Of a DNA stretch of 45,452 nt, positions 22,613 to 30,085 are shown piece after piece; the first letter of the stretch is position 1, and each line of letters starts with the position of its first letter. Below the pieces are notes generated by a model. It was given only the letters and a program-made list of their open reading frames with translations. It ran no database searches and was not told the DNA's origin. The stretch covers positions 1 through 45,452 of the forward strand of contig JANTGH010000011.1 in the NCBI GenBank assembly GCA_024763055.1, in the 5' to 3' direction. Both the position numbers and the translations under genes were made by a program. Source of the stretch: Desulfobulbaceae bacterium. GTDB lineage: Bacteria > Desulfobacterota > Desulfobulbia > Desulfobulbales > Desulfobulbaceae.

Positions 22613-23956
22613 TCAGGCATCGTTCTTTGCTTCAACCGCAATTTCACCGTCATCCTCTTTTGTTTCGACAGCTACTTCCGTAAAATTTGCATTATCTCTT
22701 AAGAATTCGAGAATTTTTTCATTGAGCAACTCATTAACAAAGGGCAGTATCTCTTCCCGACGTTTAAAATAGCTCTTCACCTCGGCAAGCGTCATATTAT
22801 ACTCATCCGCCACCCGCTGATATCCTCGTTCAATATCCTCATCGGCCAGTTTGATCTCTTCGACTTCGGCAACCTTTTTTAACAGGAAATCACCGCGAAC
22901 CCGCTTTTCGGCAACCGGCTTATTCCGTTCGACAAGCTCTTCAAGATTAATTCCCGCAGATTCCAGGGTAAGTCCACTACGTTTGAGGTTTTCCTCAGTC
23001 TGTTTCACCATTTCCTGAACCTCATACATGACCAGCCGTGCGGGCACATCAAACGTATTAAGCTCAATGAGCTTTTCCATGATCCGGTCATCGAGCTCCC
23101 CTTCCAGGGTTTTTTCCTTTTCCTTCTTTAACTCATCTCGGATACTTGTGCGTAAATCATCAAGGGTCTCATGGTCCGGATTGATATCCTTGGCAAACTC
23201 ATCATCAAGTTCCGGCTTGATCCGAACCTTGACATCTTTGATATCAACCTTGAACTCAACAGCTTTCCCGGCCAGTATCGGATTCGGATAGTCAGCAGGA
23301 AAATCAATTTCATATAAGGTTTTATCCCCTTGTTTCAATCCCAGGAGCTTACTCTCAAACTCTTCCCCAAGACGTTTTTGACCAACATCTATGGAATAAT
23401 CGGTGTTATGCACTTCTTTCATAGGCTTGCCGTTATGAAAGCCCTGGAAATCAACCATTACCATATCATCATTTTCAATAGCATGATCGGCGTCTGCTGA
23501 TTTCAACACAGCATGATTACGGCGTAACTCCTCAATCTTGGCATTCACTTCATCTTCGGTAACATCAGTAGCCGGTTTCTCAACCTCAAGTCCCTTATAT
23601 TCAGATAAATCAAAAACCGGTTTGACATCCACCATGGCAACATAGGAAAAGGTGCCTTCATCGGCAAAGTTATGTTCAACAATCTCCGGATGGACGACCG
23701 TATCAAGCCCTTCCTTTTCAACGGCATCAAAATAGGTGTCCTGGACCAGTTTTTCTCCAACCTCGGCTTGAACTTGATCCCGGTAATTCTTTTCCAGTAC
23801 GGTCCTTGGAATTTTTCCCCGACGAAATCCCTTTATCCGTACATCCTTTTTCAGCTTATGATAGGCCTTATCCAGCGCTTTTCCCACATCCTCGGACGGC
23901 AATGTTATTGTCAGTTTCCGGGTCAGCTCACTTATGTTTTCGACTACGATATCCAT
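22613..23956 (-). CDS. tig: Trigger factor (ribosome-associated chaperone, peptidyl-prolyl isomerase)
   Basis: 447 residues with the three-domain layout: an N-terminal ribosome-binding domain (MDIVVENISELTRKLTITLP start, with the signature GFRRGKIPRTVLEK containing the F-R-x-G-K loop near residue 45), a central FKBP domain (about 150-245, VMVDFQGF, LGEEFE, DFPADYPN), and a helical C-terminal chaperone arm ending in an acidic tail. I place the start at ATG 23956 to match the family N terminus. The frame is open 27 codons further up. Confidence 0.96.
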   Translation of the reverse strand: MDIVVENISELTRKLTITLPSEDVGKALDKAYHKLKKDVRIKGFRRGKIPRTVLEKNYRDQVQAEVGEKLVQDTYFDAVEKEGLDTVVHPEIVEHNFADEGTFSYVAMVDVKPVFDLSEYKGLEVEKPATDVTEDEVNAKIEELRRNHAVLKSADADHAIENDDMVMVDFQGFHNGKPMKEVHNTDYSIDVGQKRLGEEFESKLLGLKQGDKTLYEIDFPADYPNPILAGKAVEFKVDIKDVKVRIKPELDDEFAKDINPDHETLDDLRTSIRDELKKEKEKTLEGELDDRIMEKLIELNTFDVPARLVMYEVQEMVKQTEENLKRSGLTLESAGINLEELVERNKPVAEKRVRGDFLLKKVAEVEEIKLADEDIERGYQRVADEYNMTLAEVKSYFKRREEILPFVNELLNEKILEFLRDNANFTEVAVETKEDDGEIAVEAKNDA

Positions 23957-24102
23957 TGAAATAATATCCTTTTCACCATTGTCTGCTCCTACAACCTGCA
24001 TGCAGGTAAAATCCCGTTTTACCTGCCCTGCATCCATAAGAACAAAGCATTATTTTTTTGCCCTATCTGCCGGGTCCATTTGACCTGCAGCCCGTCCTAT
24101 CA

Positions 24103-26994: not shown

Positions 26995-27849
26995 ATGAAA
27001 AAATTTATTTTTACGATTGCCTGTCTCCTGCTCCTGTCGGCTGCATCGCTGCCAGCTGCGCAAAATGCACCGGCAAACGGCCTTGACTGGTCTGTCAAAC
27101 AAACCTGGAAACTAAAAATCGAACCTCTGGACTTTGTACAGTCCCTTGATAATAAAAAGATTTTTGTCCTTGGTGCGGACAGCAAGGTTCATATCTTTAC
27201 CCCGCAGGGAGCCGAGTTAGGATCGATCCCGGTAAACAAGGACGTAACAGCCATTGATATTGCCCCCCGGGGAGAAATGTTGTACCTGATCAGTAAAAAA
27301 GGAAAGAGCTATACCGCTCTTGATATCAGCGTTACCCAGAAGATTGATATCACCGGCGCCCCTTTTCTCGGCAATGAAAACGCACCGGTCGCCCTGATTG
27401 TCTTTTCAGACTTCCAATGACCCTACTGCGGCAAAGTTCAGCCGCTGCTCGAGCAGGTGCTCGAAAATAATCCGGAAAACGTCAAAATTGTCTTTAAACA
27501 TCTTCCGTTACGCATGCACAACATGGCCGAAAAAGCGGCACTTGCCGCCATTGCCGCCCAGGACCAGGGAAAATTCTGGCAGATGCATGACGCCTTGTTC
27601 GGGGCCGGTCCACTGACAAAGGAAAGCATAGAGTCTGCAGCAACAGCGATCGGCCTCAACATGGAACAGTTTAAAAAAGACCTCGCCGATCCCGCTACCA
27701 GGCAAAAATTATACAAGGATATGATGGATGCCAAAAAGGCTGATATCAGTGGGACACCAACCCTGTTTGTCAATGGACACCGGGTAAAAAACCGCAGCCT
27801 GCCGGCCATACAGGAGATGGTCAACCGTGAACTAAAAGCGAGGAAATAA
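26995..27849 (+). CDS. DsbA-like thiol oxidoreductase with a predicted selenocysteine (UxxC), exported
   Basis: Two frames in the same phase, 26995-27417 and 27421-27849, are split only by TGA 27418-27420. Read as selenocysteine the product is 284 residues: signal peptide (1 to about 22), a beta-rich domain of roughly 90 residues resembling one or two propeller blades (FVQSLDNKKIFVLGADSKVH), then a DsbA/thioredoxin fold. The TGA falls at the first position of the redox motif: FSDFQ-U142-P-Y-C145, where family members have FSDFQCPYC. The rest is intact, including PLRMHNMAEKAALAAIAA and the cis-Pro loop SGTPTLFVNG. A SECIS-like hairpin follows. Periplasmic disulphide exchange or reduction is the likely role. 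Nonsense mutation is the alternative, but the otherwise intact sequence argues against it. Confidence 0.85.
27449..27464 (+). promoter_or_regulatory. Candidate bacterial SECIS element
   Basis: TCGAGC (27449-27454) pairs perfectly with GCTCGA (27459-27464) around the loop AGGT. The loop starts 34 bases after the TGA and has G at its second position, which fits the bacterial SECIS rules as I know them (apical loop 16-37 bases from UGA, G in the first two loop bases). A rival hairpin, GCGGC/GCCGC at 27428-27445 with an 8-base loop, is closer to the TGA (12 bases) and fits less well. Confidence 0.5.
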
Positions 27850-27856
27850 CCACTTT

Positions 27857-28855
27857 TTGAAGCCATCACCTGCGTTGAACAACGAGACTGTACGGAACCT
27901 GGAATTTGATGATAACACCATCACCCAGGTTCTGTACGGAGACCTTAATAAAAATTTAGGCACGATTGAACAGGCCGCCGGGGTGACCGTATCAGCCCGT
28001 GGCAGCCATTTACAGATAGGCGGGCCTGTTCATGGAGTGGAGCTGGCAGCTTCAGTACTACGACAGCTGTATGCCCTCATAGGCAAGGGATATCCCATTT
28101 TCAGCCGGGACATTGCCTTTGGCCTGAAAGTTCTTGAATCATCCCCAAAGACACGACTTGAGGAAATCTTCCTCGACAAGGTATATATAACCTCCCGAAA
28201 TCGGGTCATCTCACCTAAAAGTATCAATCAGAAACATTACATCGACGCCATCCGCAACAACGATATTGTTTTCGGCATTGGTCCGGCCGGCACCGGCAAA
28301 ACCTATCTTGCCGTTGCCATGGCTGTTTCCGCGCTGGCGAGTGAAGAGGTCCGTTCAATAATTCTGACCAGGCCTGCCGTGGAAGCCGGTGAAAAGCTTG
28401 GGTTTCTGCCCGGTGACATGGCGCAGAAGGTTGACCCGTACCTGCGCCCCCTTACAGATGCCATCAATGACATGCTCGGTCAGGACAAGGCCCAGGAACT
28501 CGTTGACCGCGGGGTTATTGAAGTCGCGCCGCTCGCTTTTATGCGCGGCCGAACCCTCAATAATGCCTTTGTCATCCTTGATGAGGCCCAGAACACCACC
28601 CGCGAACAGATGAAGATGTTTCTGACCCGGATCGGTTTTGACTCGTGTGCTGTAATAACGGGCGATATCACCCAGATTGATCTGCCGGGCCGCAGCCATT
28701 CAGGACTGATCGAGGCGGAACATATTCTTTCCGACATCCGTGGTATAGCCGTCAGTCATTTTTCTAAATCCGATGTCGTCCGCCATCCGTTGGTCCAGAA
28801 AATAATCCAGGCCTATGAACAGGGCACAGACAAAACATCCGTCCGTGCCGTTTAA
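27857..28855 (+). CDS. phoH: PhoH-like ATPase
   Basis: 332 residues: an N-terminal KH-like nucleic-acid binding part (about 20-75), then the PhoH P-loop domain with Walker A GPAGTGKT (142-149) and Walker B FVILDEAQNTT. The family is tied to RNA metabolism and is commonly next to ybeY, as here. The start is taken as TTG 27857, 7 bases after the DsbA-like stop. A purine-rich GAGGAA lies about 15 bases upstream, so the start is not firmly fixed. Confidence 0.93.
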   Translation: MKPSPALNNETVRNLEFDDNTITQVLYGDLNKNLGTIEQAAGVTVSARGSHLQIGGPVHGVELAASVLRQLYALIGKGYPIFSRDIAFGLKVLESSPKTRLEEIFLDKVYITSRNRVISPKSINQKHYIDAIRNNDIVFGIGPAGTGKTYLAVAMAVSALASEEVRSIILTRPAVEAGEKLGFLPGDMAQKVDPYLRPLTDAINDMLGQDKAQELVDRGVIEVAPLAFMRGRTLNNAFVILDEAQNTTREQMKMFLTRIGFDSCAVITGDITQIDLPGRSHSGLIEAEHILSDIRGIAVSHFSKSDVVRHPLVQKIIQAYEQGTDKTSVRAV

Positions 28856-28894: not shown

Positions 28895-30085
28895 ATGCCA
28901 CTGCACCTTATCGATCAATATTCTCCGGGCAGCTGCCGGATCAACCGTGATATTCTGCAAAACCACGGTCTGCGGCTGCTGGAAATTCTCCACTGCGCGG
29001 ACCAGGTCTTCAGTATTGTCCTGATCGATGATCAGGCCATGGCTGATTTTAATCACCACTACCGCCACAAAAAAGGGCCAACCAATGTGCTGTCTTTCCC
29101 CGCCCGGGAGGGAGAGGAACAATTTCCCGGCCTGGAATCGGAACTCGGAGACATCCTTATCTCCGTTGATACCGCCATACAGGAAGCCGGACAGGCAAAT
29201 ACATCAGCCCACCGCCGAATTACCGAACTTATTATCCACGGTCTGCTGCATCTTCTCGGATATGACCACGAGCGCTCCGAAGAAGAGGCCCGGGTCATGC
29301 GGGAACGGGAAAAAGAGCTCCTGCAGCAACTCCTCACCAAACACTTATCTTCAGGGAGAAGAACCATGCCTCACCTTGCCATTAATGTCGATCATGTTGC
29401 CACGGTCCGTCAGGCCCGGGGAATCACGGAGCCCGATCCGGTCCTTGCCGCCGGCATCTGTGAACTGGCCGGCGCCGAAGGAATTGTCGTTCATCTGCGT
29501 GAAGACCGCCGCCACATGCAGGACCGCGATGTCCGGATCCTGCGCCAGACCATCAAAACAAAACTGAACCTGGAAATGGCCGCCGTGAAGGAGATCATTA
29601 ACATTGCCCTGGATATCAAACCGGACATGATCACCCTGGTTCCTGAGAAACGCAAGGAACTTACCACCGAAGGTGGTCTGGATGTCATCGGTAATGAAAA
29701 AAAACTGAAAAAAACAATCGGGAAGATGCGCAAGGCCTCGATCCCGGTATCCATCTTTATTGATCCTGACGCGGCCCAGATAGAGGCCGCGGCCGATATC
29801 GGCGCCACCTTTGTCGAACTGCATACCGGCCGCTACTGCGATGCAACCTCACAGAAAGAACGAGATATGGAATTTCGTCTTATTGAGCAATCAGCCGAGT
29901 TGGCCTTTGAATCCGGCCTGCGGGTCAATGCCGGTCATGGGCTGGATTATTTGACAACAGCGCGCGTTGCCGCCCTGCCGACCATTGAGGAATTAAGCAT
30001 CGGCCATGCCATCATCAGCCGGGCCGTTCTGGTTGGGCTTGATCAGGCAGTACGCGAAATGATCGCCATTGTCAAGGGCGCTTAA
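28895..30085 (+). CDS. YbeY-PdxJ fusion frame: endoribonuclease YbeY and pyridoxine 5'-phosphate synthase
   Basis: One uninterrupted frame of 396 codons encodes YbeY (1 to about 150) and PdxJ (158-396) with no stop between them. YbeY carries its zinc motif [11 protein letters not shown] (His115, His119, His125), with NVLSFP before it, and acts in 16S rRNA maturation. PdxJ makes pyridoxine 5'-phosphate and is complete: [45 protein letters not shown]. An ATG at 29366 with GGGAG upstream (7-base spacing) could also start a free 239-residue PdxJ. So one fused protein, or both fused and free PdxJ, may be made. The stop overlaps that of the convergent channel gene. Confidence 0.9.
29354..29368 (+). 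promoter_or_regulatory. pdxJ: Internal ribosome binding site and start for free PdxJ
   Basis: GGGAG at 29354-29358 lies 7 bases before ATG 29366, inside the fused frame, exactly at the usual PdxJ N terminus ([15 protein letters not shown]). It suggests that pdxJ was, or still is, translated independently. Confidence 0.6.

Follow-up and report, generated by a model that had tools for sequence, protein, structure and literature searches.

The stretch of Desulfobulbaceae DNA analysed here (contig JANTGH010000011.1, positions 1 to 45,452; the window, 45,452 nucleotides) contains a reading frame that is interrupted by a TGA at the point where a DsbA-like protein would carry its first redox residue. 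Is this triplet the scar of a broken gene, or is it read as selenocysteine (Sec)? And if it is read, by what signal, and with what history among related bacteria? The original prediction, made from the letters of the window, proposed a selenoprotein with UxxC in place of CxxC.

An in-frame UGA at the active site of a DsbA-like protein

With TGA translated as U, positions 26995-27849 (+ strand) give a complete frame of 284 residues that ends in TAA, and the sole internal TGA (27418-27420) is codon 142. As had been foreseen, standard calling splits this gene, the ORF lister giving 26995-27420 (141 aa) and 27457-27849 (130 aa). The Pfam matches to Thioredoxin_4 (88.4 bits, cut-off 23.2) and DSBA (79.4 bits, cut-off 25.6) both span the TGA, which places it in frame at the first redox residue of a DsbA domain, as originally claimed. 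The alignment with solved DsbA-like proteins also runs across the active site. According to Pfam and structure matches the DsbA-like thioredoxin domain, with a UPYC active site, covers residues 121-284 (27355-27846); the codon of the second active-site residue, Cys145, lies at 27427-27429 and those of Thr254-Pro255, the cis-Pro position, at 27754-27759. The family motifs recognized on both flanks of the TGA, including cis-Pro, held up in the homologs: Pro143, Cys145, Thr254 and Pro255 are unchanged across all 131 rows of the alignment described below. Pfam matches, UxxC motif, cis-Pro position and fold all identify a DsbA-like thioredoxin-fold oxidoreductase (PF01323/PF13462). In the genome of the window (assembly of 350 contigs, 97.19% complete, 4.89% contamination), the protein matches one place at E <= 0.001, the gene itself, which is also the only Thioredoxin_4 match.

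A structure model was obtained with AlphaFold2 from 26 sequences (mean pLDDT 83.1; ten-residue blocks at 88-98 in the DsbA domain and ~66-83 in the N-terminal beta domain). The best solved relatives were 3gyk_B (Z 23.5, rmsd 1.8, 167 aligned), BdbD 3eu3 (Z 23.2, rmsd 1.9, 170 aligned) and ScsC 6mhh (Z 22.4, rmsd 1.9, 164 aligned). A hydrophobic stretch at residues 1-22 (26995-27060), judged by eye from the sequence, resembles a signal peptide and would be consistent with export. VKOR gave no match in a family search of the window's genome, and DsbD_TM gave one match above cut-off (49.7 bits, cut-off 27.1). This combination slightly favours work as a reductase or isomerase.

The N-terminal domain had been described as propeller-like. 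This applies to its predicted blades, of which there are about two (residues 34-112; 27094-27330), and not to a whole propeller. Modelled alone (two sequences), the domain showed seven strands forming ~two blades, with a mean pLDDT of 74.7. Foldseek placed designed propeller proteins on top, with 6r5x, an 8-bladed propeller made from four 2-bladed fragments, at rank 5, none of them at E <= 0.001. The best VIA-align match had a Z of 10.6 (rmsd 3.2 over 81 residues), with many tied WD-repeat chains, and the match to the beta-propeller model TIGR03866 was weak, far below cut-off. Since a ring cannot be closed by the two blades of a single chain, we propose that the protein oligomerises, its two-blade domains assembling into a closed propeller. 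Two-blade chains form a trimer in the Ralstonia lectin RSL, which offers a precedent.

Column 142 holds Sec-UGA or cysteine

Homologs were sought in 193 genomes of the order, with matches in 189. Alignment rows were taken from most of the listed, score-ordered matches (29 loci besides the window's and 100 further regions), so that the ratio of Sec to Cys among the rows is not an unbiased frequency. Together with the window and L002 (Desulfobulbus sp. HyVt-436, from the named genomes, 76% identity) this gave 131 rows, or 130 non-redundant rows after removal of L065, a duplicate of L002. One check proposed at the outset was to look for Cys aligned to codon 142: the column contains Sec-UGA in 54 and Cys in 76 of the 130 rows, and nothing else. 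All 55 in-frame UGAs within columns 1-280 of the 131 rows fall at column 142 and the remaining 76 rows have Cys there, in keeping with the original argument that random nonsense at this one position is unlikely. A search of the phylum (297 genomes) yielded matches at E <= 1e-30 in 55 genomes, 12 of them from the window's own order. When 30 phylum loci and 8 outgroup sequences were added to the 130 rows, column 142 was UGA in 71 and Cys in 97 of the 168, again with no other residue. The named genomes contributed 45 loci; all except L002 are free of UGA in the matched part, and the N-termini of these 44 appear by eye unrelated to that of the window protein. Separately, genome G133 has a homolog (C1:2395237-2395959) that contains one internal TGA and one TAG and matches over a reduced length; it may be a copy in decay.

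Against five relatives of the same genus, pN/pS was 0.17-0.21 upstream and 0.19-0.23 downstream of the UGA; against three more distant rows of the same family it was 0.31-0.41 before and 0.26-0.38 after. Purifying selection thus acts on both sides, which indicates that both parts are translated. Within codons 145-158, pS was ~0.10-0.11 in five comparisons (L067, L071 and L072 gave no value), compared to 0.58-0.84 when the upstream or downstream part was taken in full, pointing to an RNA element in this segment. The gene accordingly has an in-frame UGA with conserved coding on both sides, paired with a conserved redox Cys in its homologs, as is typical of selenoproteins.

The UGA might also act as a selenium-gated switch, giving the 141-residue N-terminal product under selenium shortage and the full-length enzyme under ample supply. 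The stop indeed comes after a complete predicted beta domain, but Cys forms, which cannot be gated, stand at the same locus and still have an N-terminal part that can be aligned, two Sec forms (L229 and L230) have no N-terminal domain to release, and the stability of a short product is only hypothetical. We therefore consider such a switch very unlikely.

A tandem hairpin follows the UGA

The case for a selenoprotein was strengthened by a feature that the original prediction had not considered, a bSECIS hairpin downstream of the UGA. The window RNA folds into two consecutive hairpins. Hairpin 1 (27428-27445) has 5 bp and, in the window, an 8-nt loop. Hairpin 2 (27449-27464), the bSECIS core, consists of a 6-bp stem and a 4-nt AGGU loop (27455-27458) that starts 34 nt past the UGA, and has a folding energy of -9.1 kcal/mol for the 23-nt piece alone. 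The published bSECIS criteria, as given in the relevant part of PMC13188914, are a loop of 3-9 nt, an upper stem of 4-16 bp, a G in loop positions 1-2, a spacing of 16-37 nt and an MFE <= -7.5 kcal/mol; hairpin 2 agrees with the four published criteria of that source and lies within each of these limits. As to the 60 nt from the UGA as a whole, these fold modestly better than dinucleotide shuffles (z -1.67, 9/200 as good).

The hairpins go with the UGA. All six inner pairs of hairpin 2 are present in 54/54 Sec rows and 3/76 Cys rows, and the five pairs of hairpin 1 in 45/54 and 2/76, respectively. Scanning for a stem with a GGU loop at the expected place recovered 50 of the 54 Sec rows. Among the other four, two (L152 and L190) had been assigned a rival GGU stem, and the remaining two, L076 and L150, are the Sec rows in which the loop is AGUU rather than AGGU. 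When the codons of the 54 Sec rows were resampled with the protein preserved (500 runs), hairpin 2 appeared in a mean of 1.1 rows (maximum 5) and hairpin 1 in a mean of 5.8 (maximum 13).

Covariation was analyzed in the 51 distinct sequences of the Sec rows, where 8 of 13 pairs had changes on both sides. Four of five covariation measures were reached by 0/500 shuffles and the fifth (further pair types) by 26/500; 89.9% of cells were paired, versus 28-50% in six slid versions. The 76 Cys rows showed no excess of covariation over shuffles on any measure. Hairpin 1 covaries at synonymous positions: the third base of codon 145 (TGC/TGT) tracks that of codon 150 (CCG/CCA), with 39 CG pairs, 9 UA pairs and 3 unpaired.

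Outside the order, hairpin 2 was found at the same place in 14 of 17 Sec places among the matches listed (six of six pairs in 12, five in 2), with a different stem sequence in some. Pooling these 14 with the 54 rows, six of six pairs were formed in 66/68 Sec rows compared to 4/91 Cys rows, and the loop was AGGU in 61 and AGUU in 7 of the 68. The pool leaves out L231-L233, the three Sec places without hairpin 2, which look like another subfamily. In these UxxC DsbA-like genes the RNA past the UGA folds into a hairpin of another kind (near CCACCAGUUUGGUGG in L233), and L231 and L232 each have a Cys paralog as neighbour. L229 and L230, mentioned above as Sec homologs without the beta domain, have hairpin 2 at the same place, which indicates that the signal goes with the thioredoxin domain and not with the architecture.

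These results bear on the possibility that the TGA is a nonsense mutation, the mark of a pseudogene or a sequencing error at a Cys codon. A single substitution separates TGA from TGC or TGT, and the assembly is fragmented, but an error would not account for an identical UGA in 54 of 130 rows, for purifying selection that persists downstream or for the full hairpin 2 that accompanies the UGA in every Sec row. We give this explanation almost no weight.

The genome encodes the selenocysteine machinery

The remaining check suggested with the original prediction concerned selA, selB, selC and selD. All four are in the genome above their cut-offs (selC 72.3 bits, cut-off 47; selB 373.6, cut-off 242.25; selA 614.5, cut-off 267.9; selD 363.7, cut-off 125), on contigs other than the window's. 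ARAGORN called a tRNA-Sec at the selC place, and SelD has an in-frame UGA of its own at residue 25 of the translated stretch. Among 14 named genomes used as a control, selC passed the cut-off in 5, selB in 2, selA in 1 and selD in 2, so that a selC match has limited specificity when taken by itself. Decoding of the UGA as some residue other than Sec, whether the codon is reassigned throughout the genome or simply read through, would also account for a frame that is open through the UGA, but with UGA terminating other window genes (e.g. trigger factor, 22613-24037) and 34 of the 131 homolog rows (Sec rows in 14 cases), a column 142 that is otherwise Cys and never Trp, and tRNA-Sec and SelB encoded, its probability is negligible.

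Across the 193 genomes of the order, selA was above cut-off in 170 and selB in at least 165, probably a lower bound as few candidates were scored. Note that two of 22 selA-less genomes were assigned by elimination. The alignment rows derive from 126 genomes, 54 with a Sec row and 72 with Cys rows only, and a selA match was absent in 6 and 13 of these, respectively. Four of the 6 Sec-row genomes without a selA match have a strong selB match, the others being G086 (63% complete) and G147 (94%), again with few candidates scored. The presence of a selA match in 59/72 Cys-only genomes indicates that the Cys state mostly does not reflect loss of the Sec trait. In genus g7, all four sampled genomes are without a selA match, and the one row taken from each is Cys. 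In the nearly closed genomes G041 and G049 (2 and 1 contigs), a Cys form (L142 and L154, respectively) occurs with selA unmatched and a strong selB; the relic hairpin of L142 is intact, which hints at a recent loss of Sec decoding.

Taking the reading frame, the homologs, the hairpins and the machinery together, we are highly confident that the gene encodes a UPYC thiol-disulfide oxidoreductase whose UGA would be recoded through hairpin 2, probably with an ordered spacer, the Sec form probably being the older one. The product would be an enzyme of the DsbA/BdbD fold, probably exported, with Sec as its first active-site residue. When the ribosome reaches the UGA at 27418, SelB carrying Sec-tRNA(Sec) would dock on the AGGU loop of hairpin 2. 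Hairpin 1 lies in the spacer that separates the UGA from hairpin 2 and probably makes it shorter and more ordered. Sec would then be inserted and translation would continue to the TAA at 27847. In conclusion, the gene is in all but experimental proof a DsbA-like UxxC selenoprotein, and very probably specifies an exported disulfide-handling enzyme with an active-site selenocysteine read from the in-frame UGA.

Sec and Cys forms at one phoH-linked locus

The next gene downstream is phoH (27857-28855, + strand), a conserved neighbour that is context and lies outside the recoding mechanism. Further downstream, a single 396-aa ORF (28895-30085, + strand) fuses YbeY (rRNA maturation RNase) to PdxJ (pyridoxine 5'-phosphate synthase), both above curated cut-offs. 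Despite the strong conservation of the neighbourhood, no mechanism for a functional link to phoH suggests itself.

Sec and Cys forms occupy the same locus just upstream of phoH in 122 of the 130 rows. Of the 129 homolog loci, 121 (47 Sec and 74 Cys) have phoH downstream on the same strand, its extrapolated start lying within 1,000 bases of codon 142. The tree of the 130 rows requires a minimum of 21 Sec/Cys switches, of which 11 are forced by branches with SH-aLRT >= 95 (this tree and that of 168 rows were built quickly under LG+G4, have SH-aLRT values as their only support and carry warnings of long branches). The 8 rows without phoH are Sec in L157, L161, L162, L165, L189 and L192 and Cys in L183 and L193. 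Three of them, L157, L161 and L165 (genomes G190, G149 and G067), are unlinked Sec copies in genomes that also have a phoH-linked Cys copy, and they group with L162 in the tree, so that they look like a Sec paralog. Hidden paralogy may therefore explain some of the switches. Dropping all 8 rows lowers the minimum from 21 to 19 on the 122 phoH-linked rows (121 and the window).

The direction of the switches, as reconstructed from the sequences, depends on the parsimony assumptions. On the midpoint-rooted in-order tree of 130 rows, equal costs gave 16 losses and 5 gains of Sec with a Sec root, a gain cost of 0.5 gave 22 gains and 1 loss with a Cys root, and gain costs >= 2 gave 24 losses and 0 gains. 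The 122 phoH-linked rows gave 14 losses and 5 gains at equal costs, 19 gains and 1 loss at a gain cost of 0.5, and 22 losses at >= 2. With outgroup rooting (168 rows), equal costs gave 15 losses and 12 gains with a Cys root, gain costs >= 2 gave 31 losses and no gains, and gains dominated at half cost.

The hairpins themselves speak to the direction. Cys rows L118, L123, L128 and L142 retain the exact 11-base hairpin core, and Cys row L074 has all six pairs of hairpin 2 with an AGUU loop. Such relics make many switches look like Sec-to-Cys losses. Moreover, the position of hairpin 2 and its near-identical core are common to the order's three deep clades, which would make many independent gains unlikely. 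Probably, then, the Sec form is the older state in the order, with repeated replacement by Cys in place and decay of the hairpin. The passage of a 2026 review that deals with Sec-to-Cys losses calls them rare in bacteria; the relic hairpins argue for a further set of such cases.

A more far-reaching reading, which we offer tentatively and think somewhat more apt to fail than to hold in full, is that the phoH-linked gene was ancestrally a Sec gene in this Desulfobacterota order, perhaps deeper, and that Cys replaced Sec in place at least a dozen independent times, mostly in lineages that kept selenium decoding, leaving relic SECIS elements behind. The two-hairpin bSECIS would be functional and its spacer hairpin required, and the two-blade fragments would close into an oligomeric beta-propeller. 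With Sec and Cys forms at the same place in close relatives and at least 19 switches between them, what selenium costs and what it brings at a single catalytic position can be compared directly, which makes the locus a natural experiment on the usefulness of selenium.

Comparison with known systems

The DsbA-like fold of residues ~93-284 is common to Bacillus BdbD (3eu3), Silicibacter 3gyk and ScsC (6mhh, 5idr), with Z 22.2-23.5; these proteins have Cys where the window protein has Sec. ScsC oligomerises via an N-terminal stalk. In the window protein a predicted beta-propeller fragment stands where ScsC has this stalk.

E. coli fdhF is an example of a single-hairpin bSECIS. Hairpin 2 resembles the consensus model of such elements in agreeing with the criteria set out in that part of PMC13188914, but at this locus the spacer that leads from the UGA to the SelB-type hairpin contains a further conserved hairpin. 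Narrow phrase searches of open-licence PMC papers returned no match for a tandem or second-hairpin bSECIS, which does not establish that none has been published, and a narrow search of the same kind returned none for a DsbA selenoprotein with a propeller. If both parts are needed, the tandem hairpin would sharpen the bSECIS model on which programs that search for selenoproteins rely.

The best NCBIfam match is NF041057, the Rcas_1661 family of thioredoxin-like (seleno)lipoproteins, listed as DsbG-like in the relevant table of PMC13188914. The thioredoxin fold is common to both, but the window protein (77.3 bits) and L002 (83.8 bits) score far below the cut-off of 190, which places them outside this family, and by eye the window protein has no clear lipobox. 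The DsbA-like protein form 1 (PF01323, UxxC) of PMC13188914 and 'DsbA 1' and 'DsbA 2' of PMC2398784 have in common with the window protein a DSBA-like thioredoxin domain with UxxC. The table rows for these forms give no architecture; the gene described here differs in its N-terminal beta domain, tandem hairpin and phoH-linked locus. UxxC DsbA-like selenoproteins are thus already known, and the existence of one more is not in itself news. What seems to be new is the two-hairpin signal, the architecture and the repeated switching between Sec and Cys at one locus.
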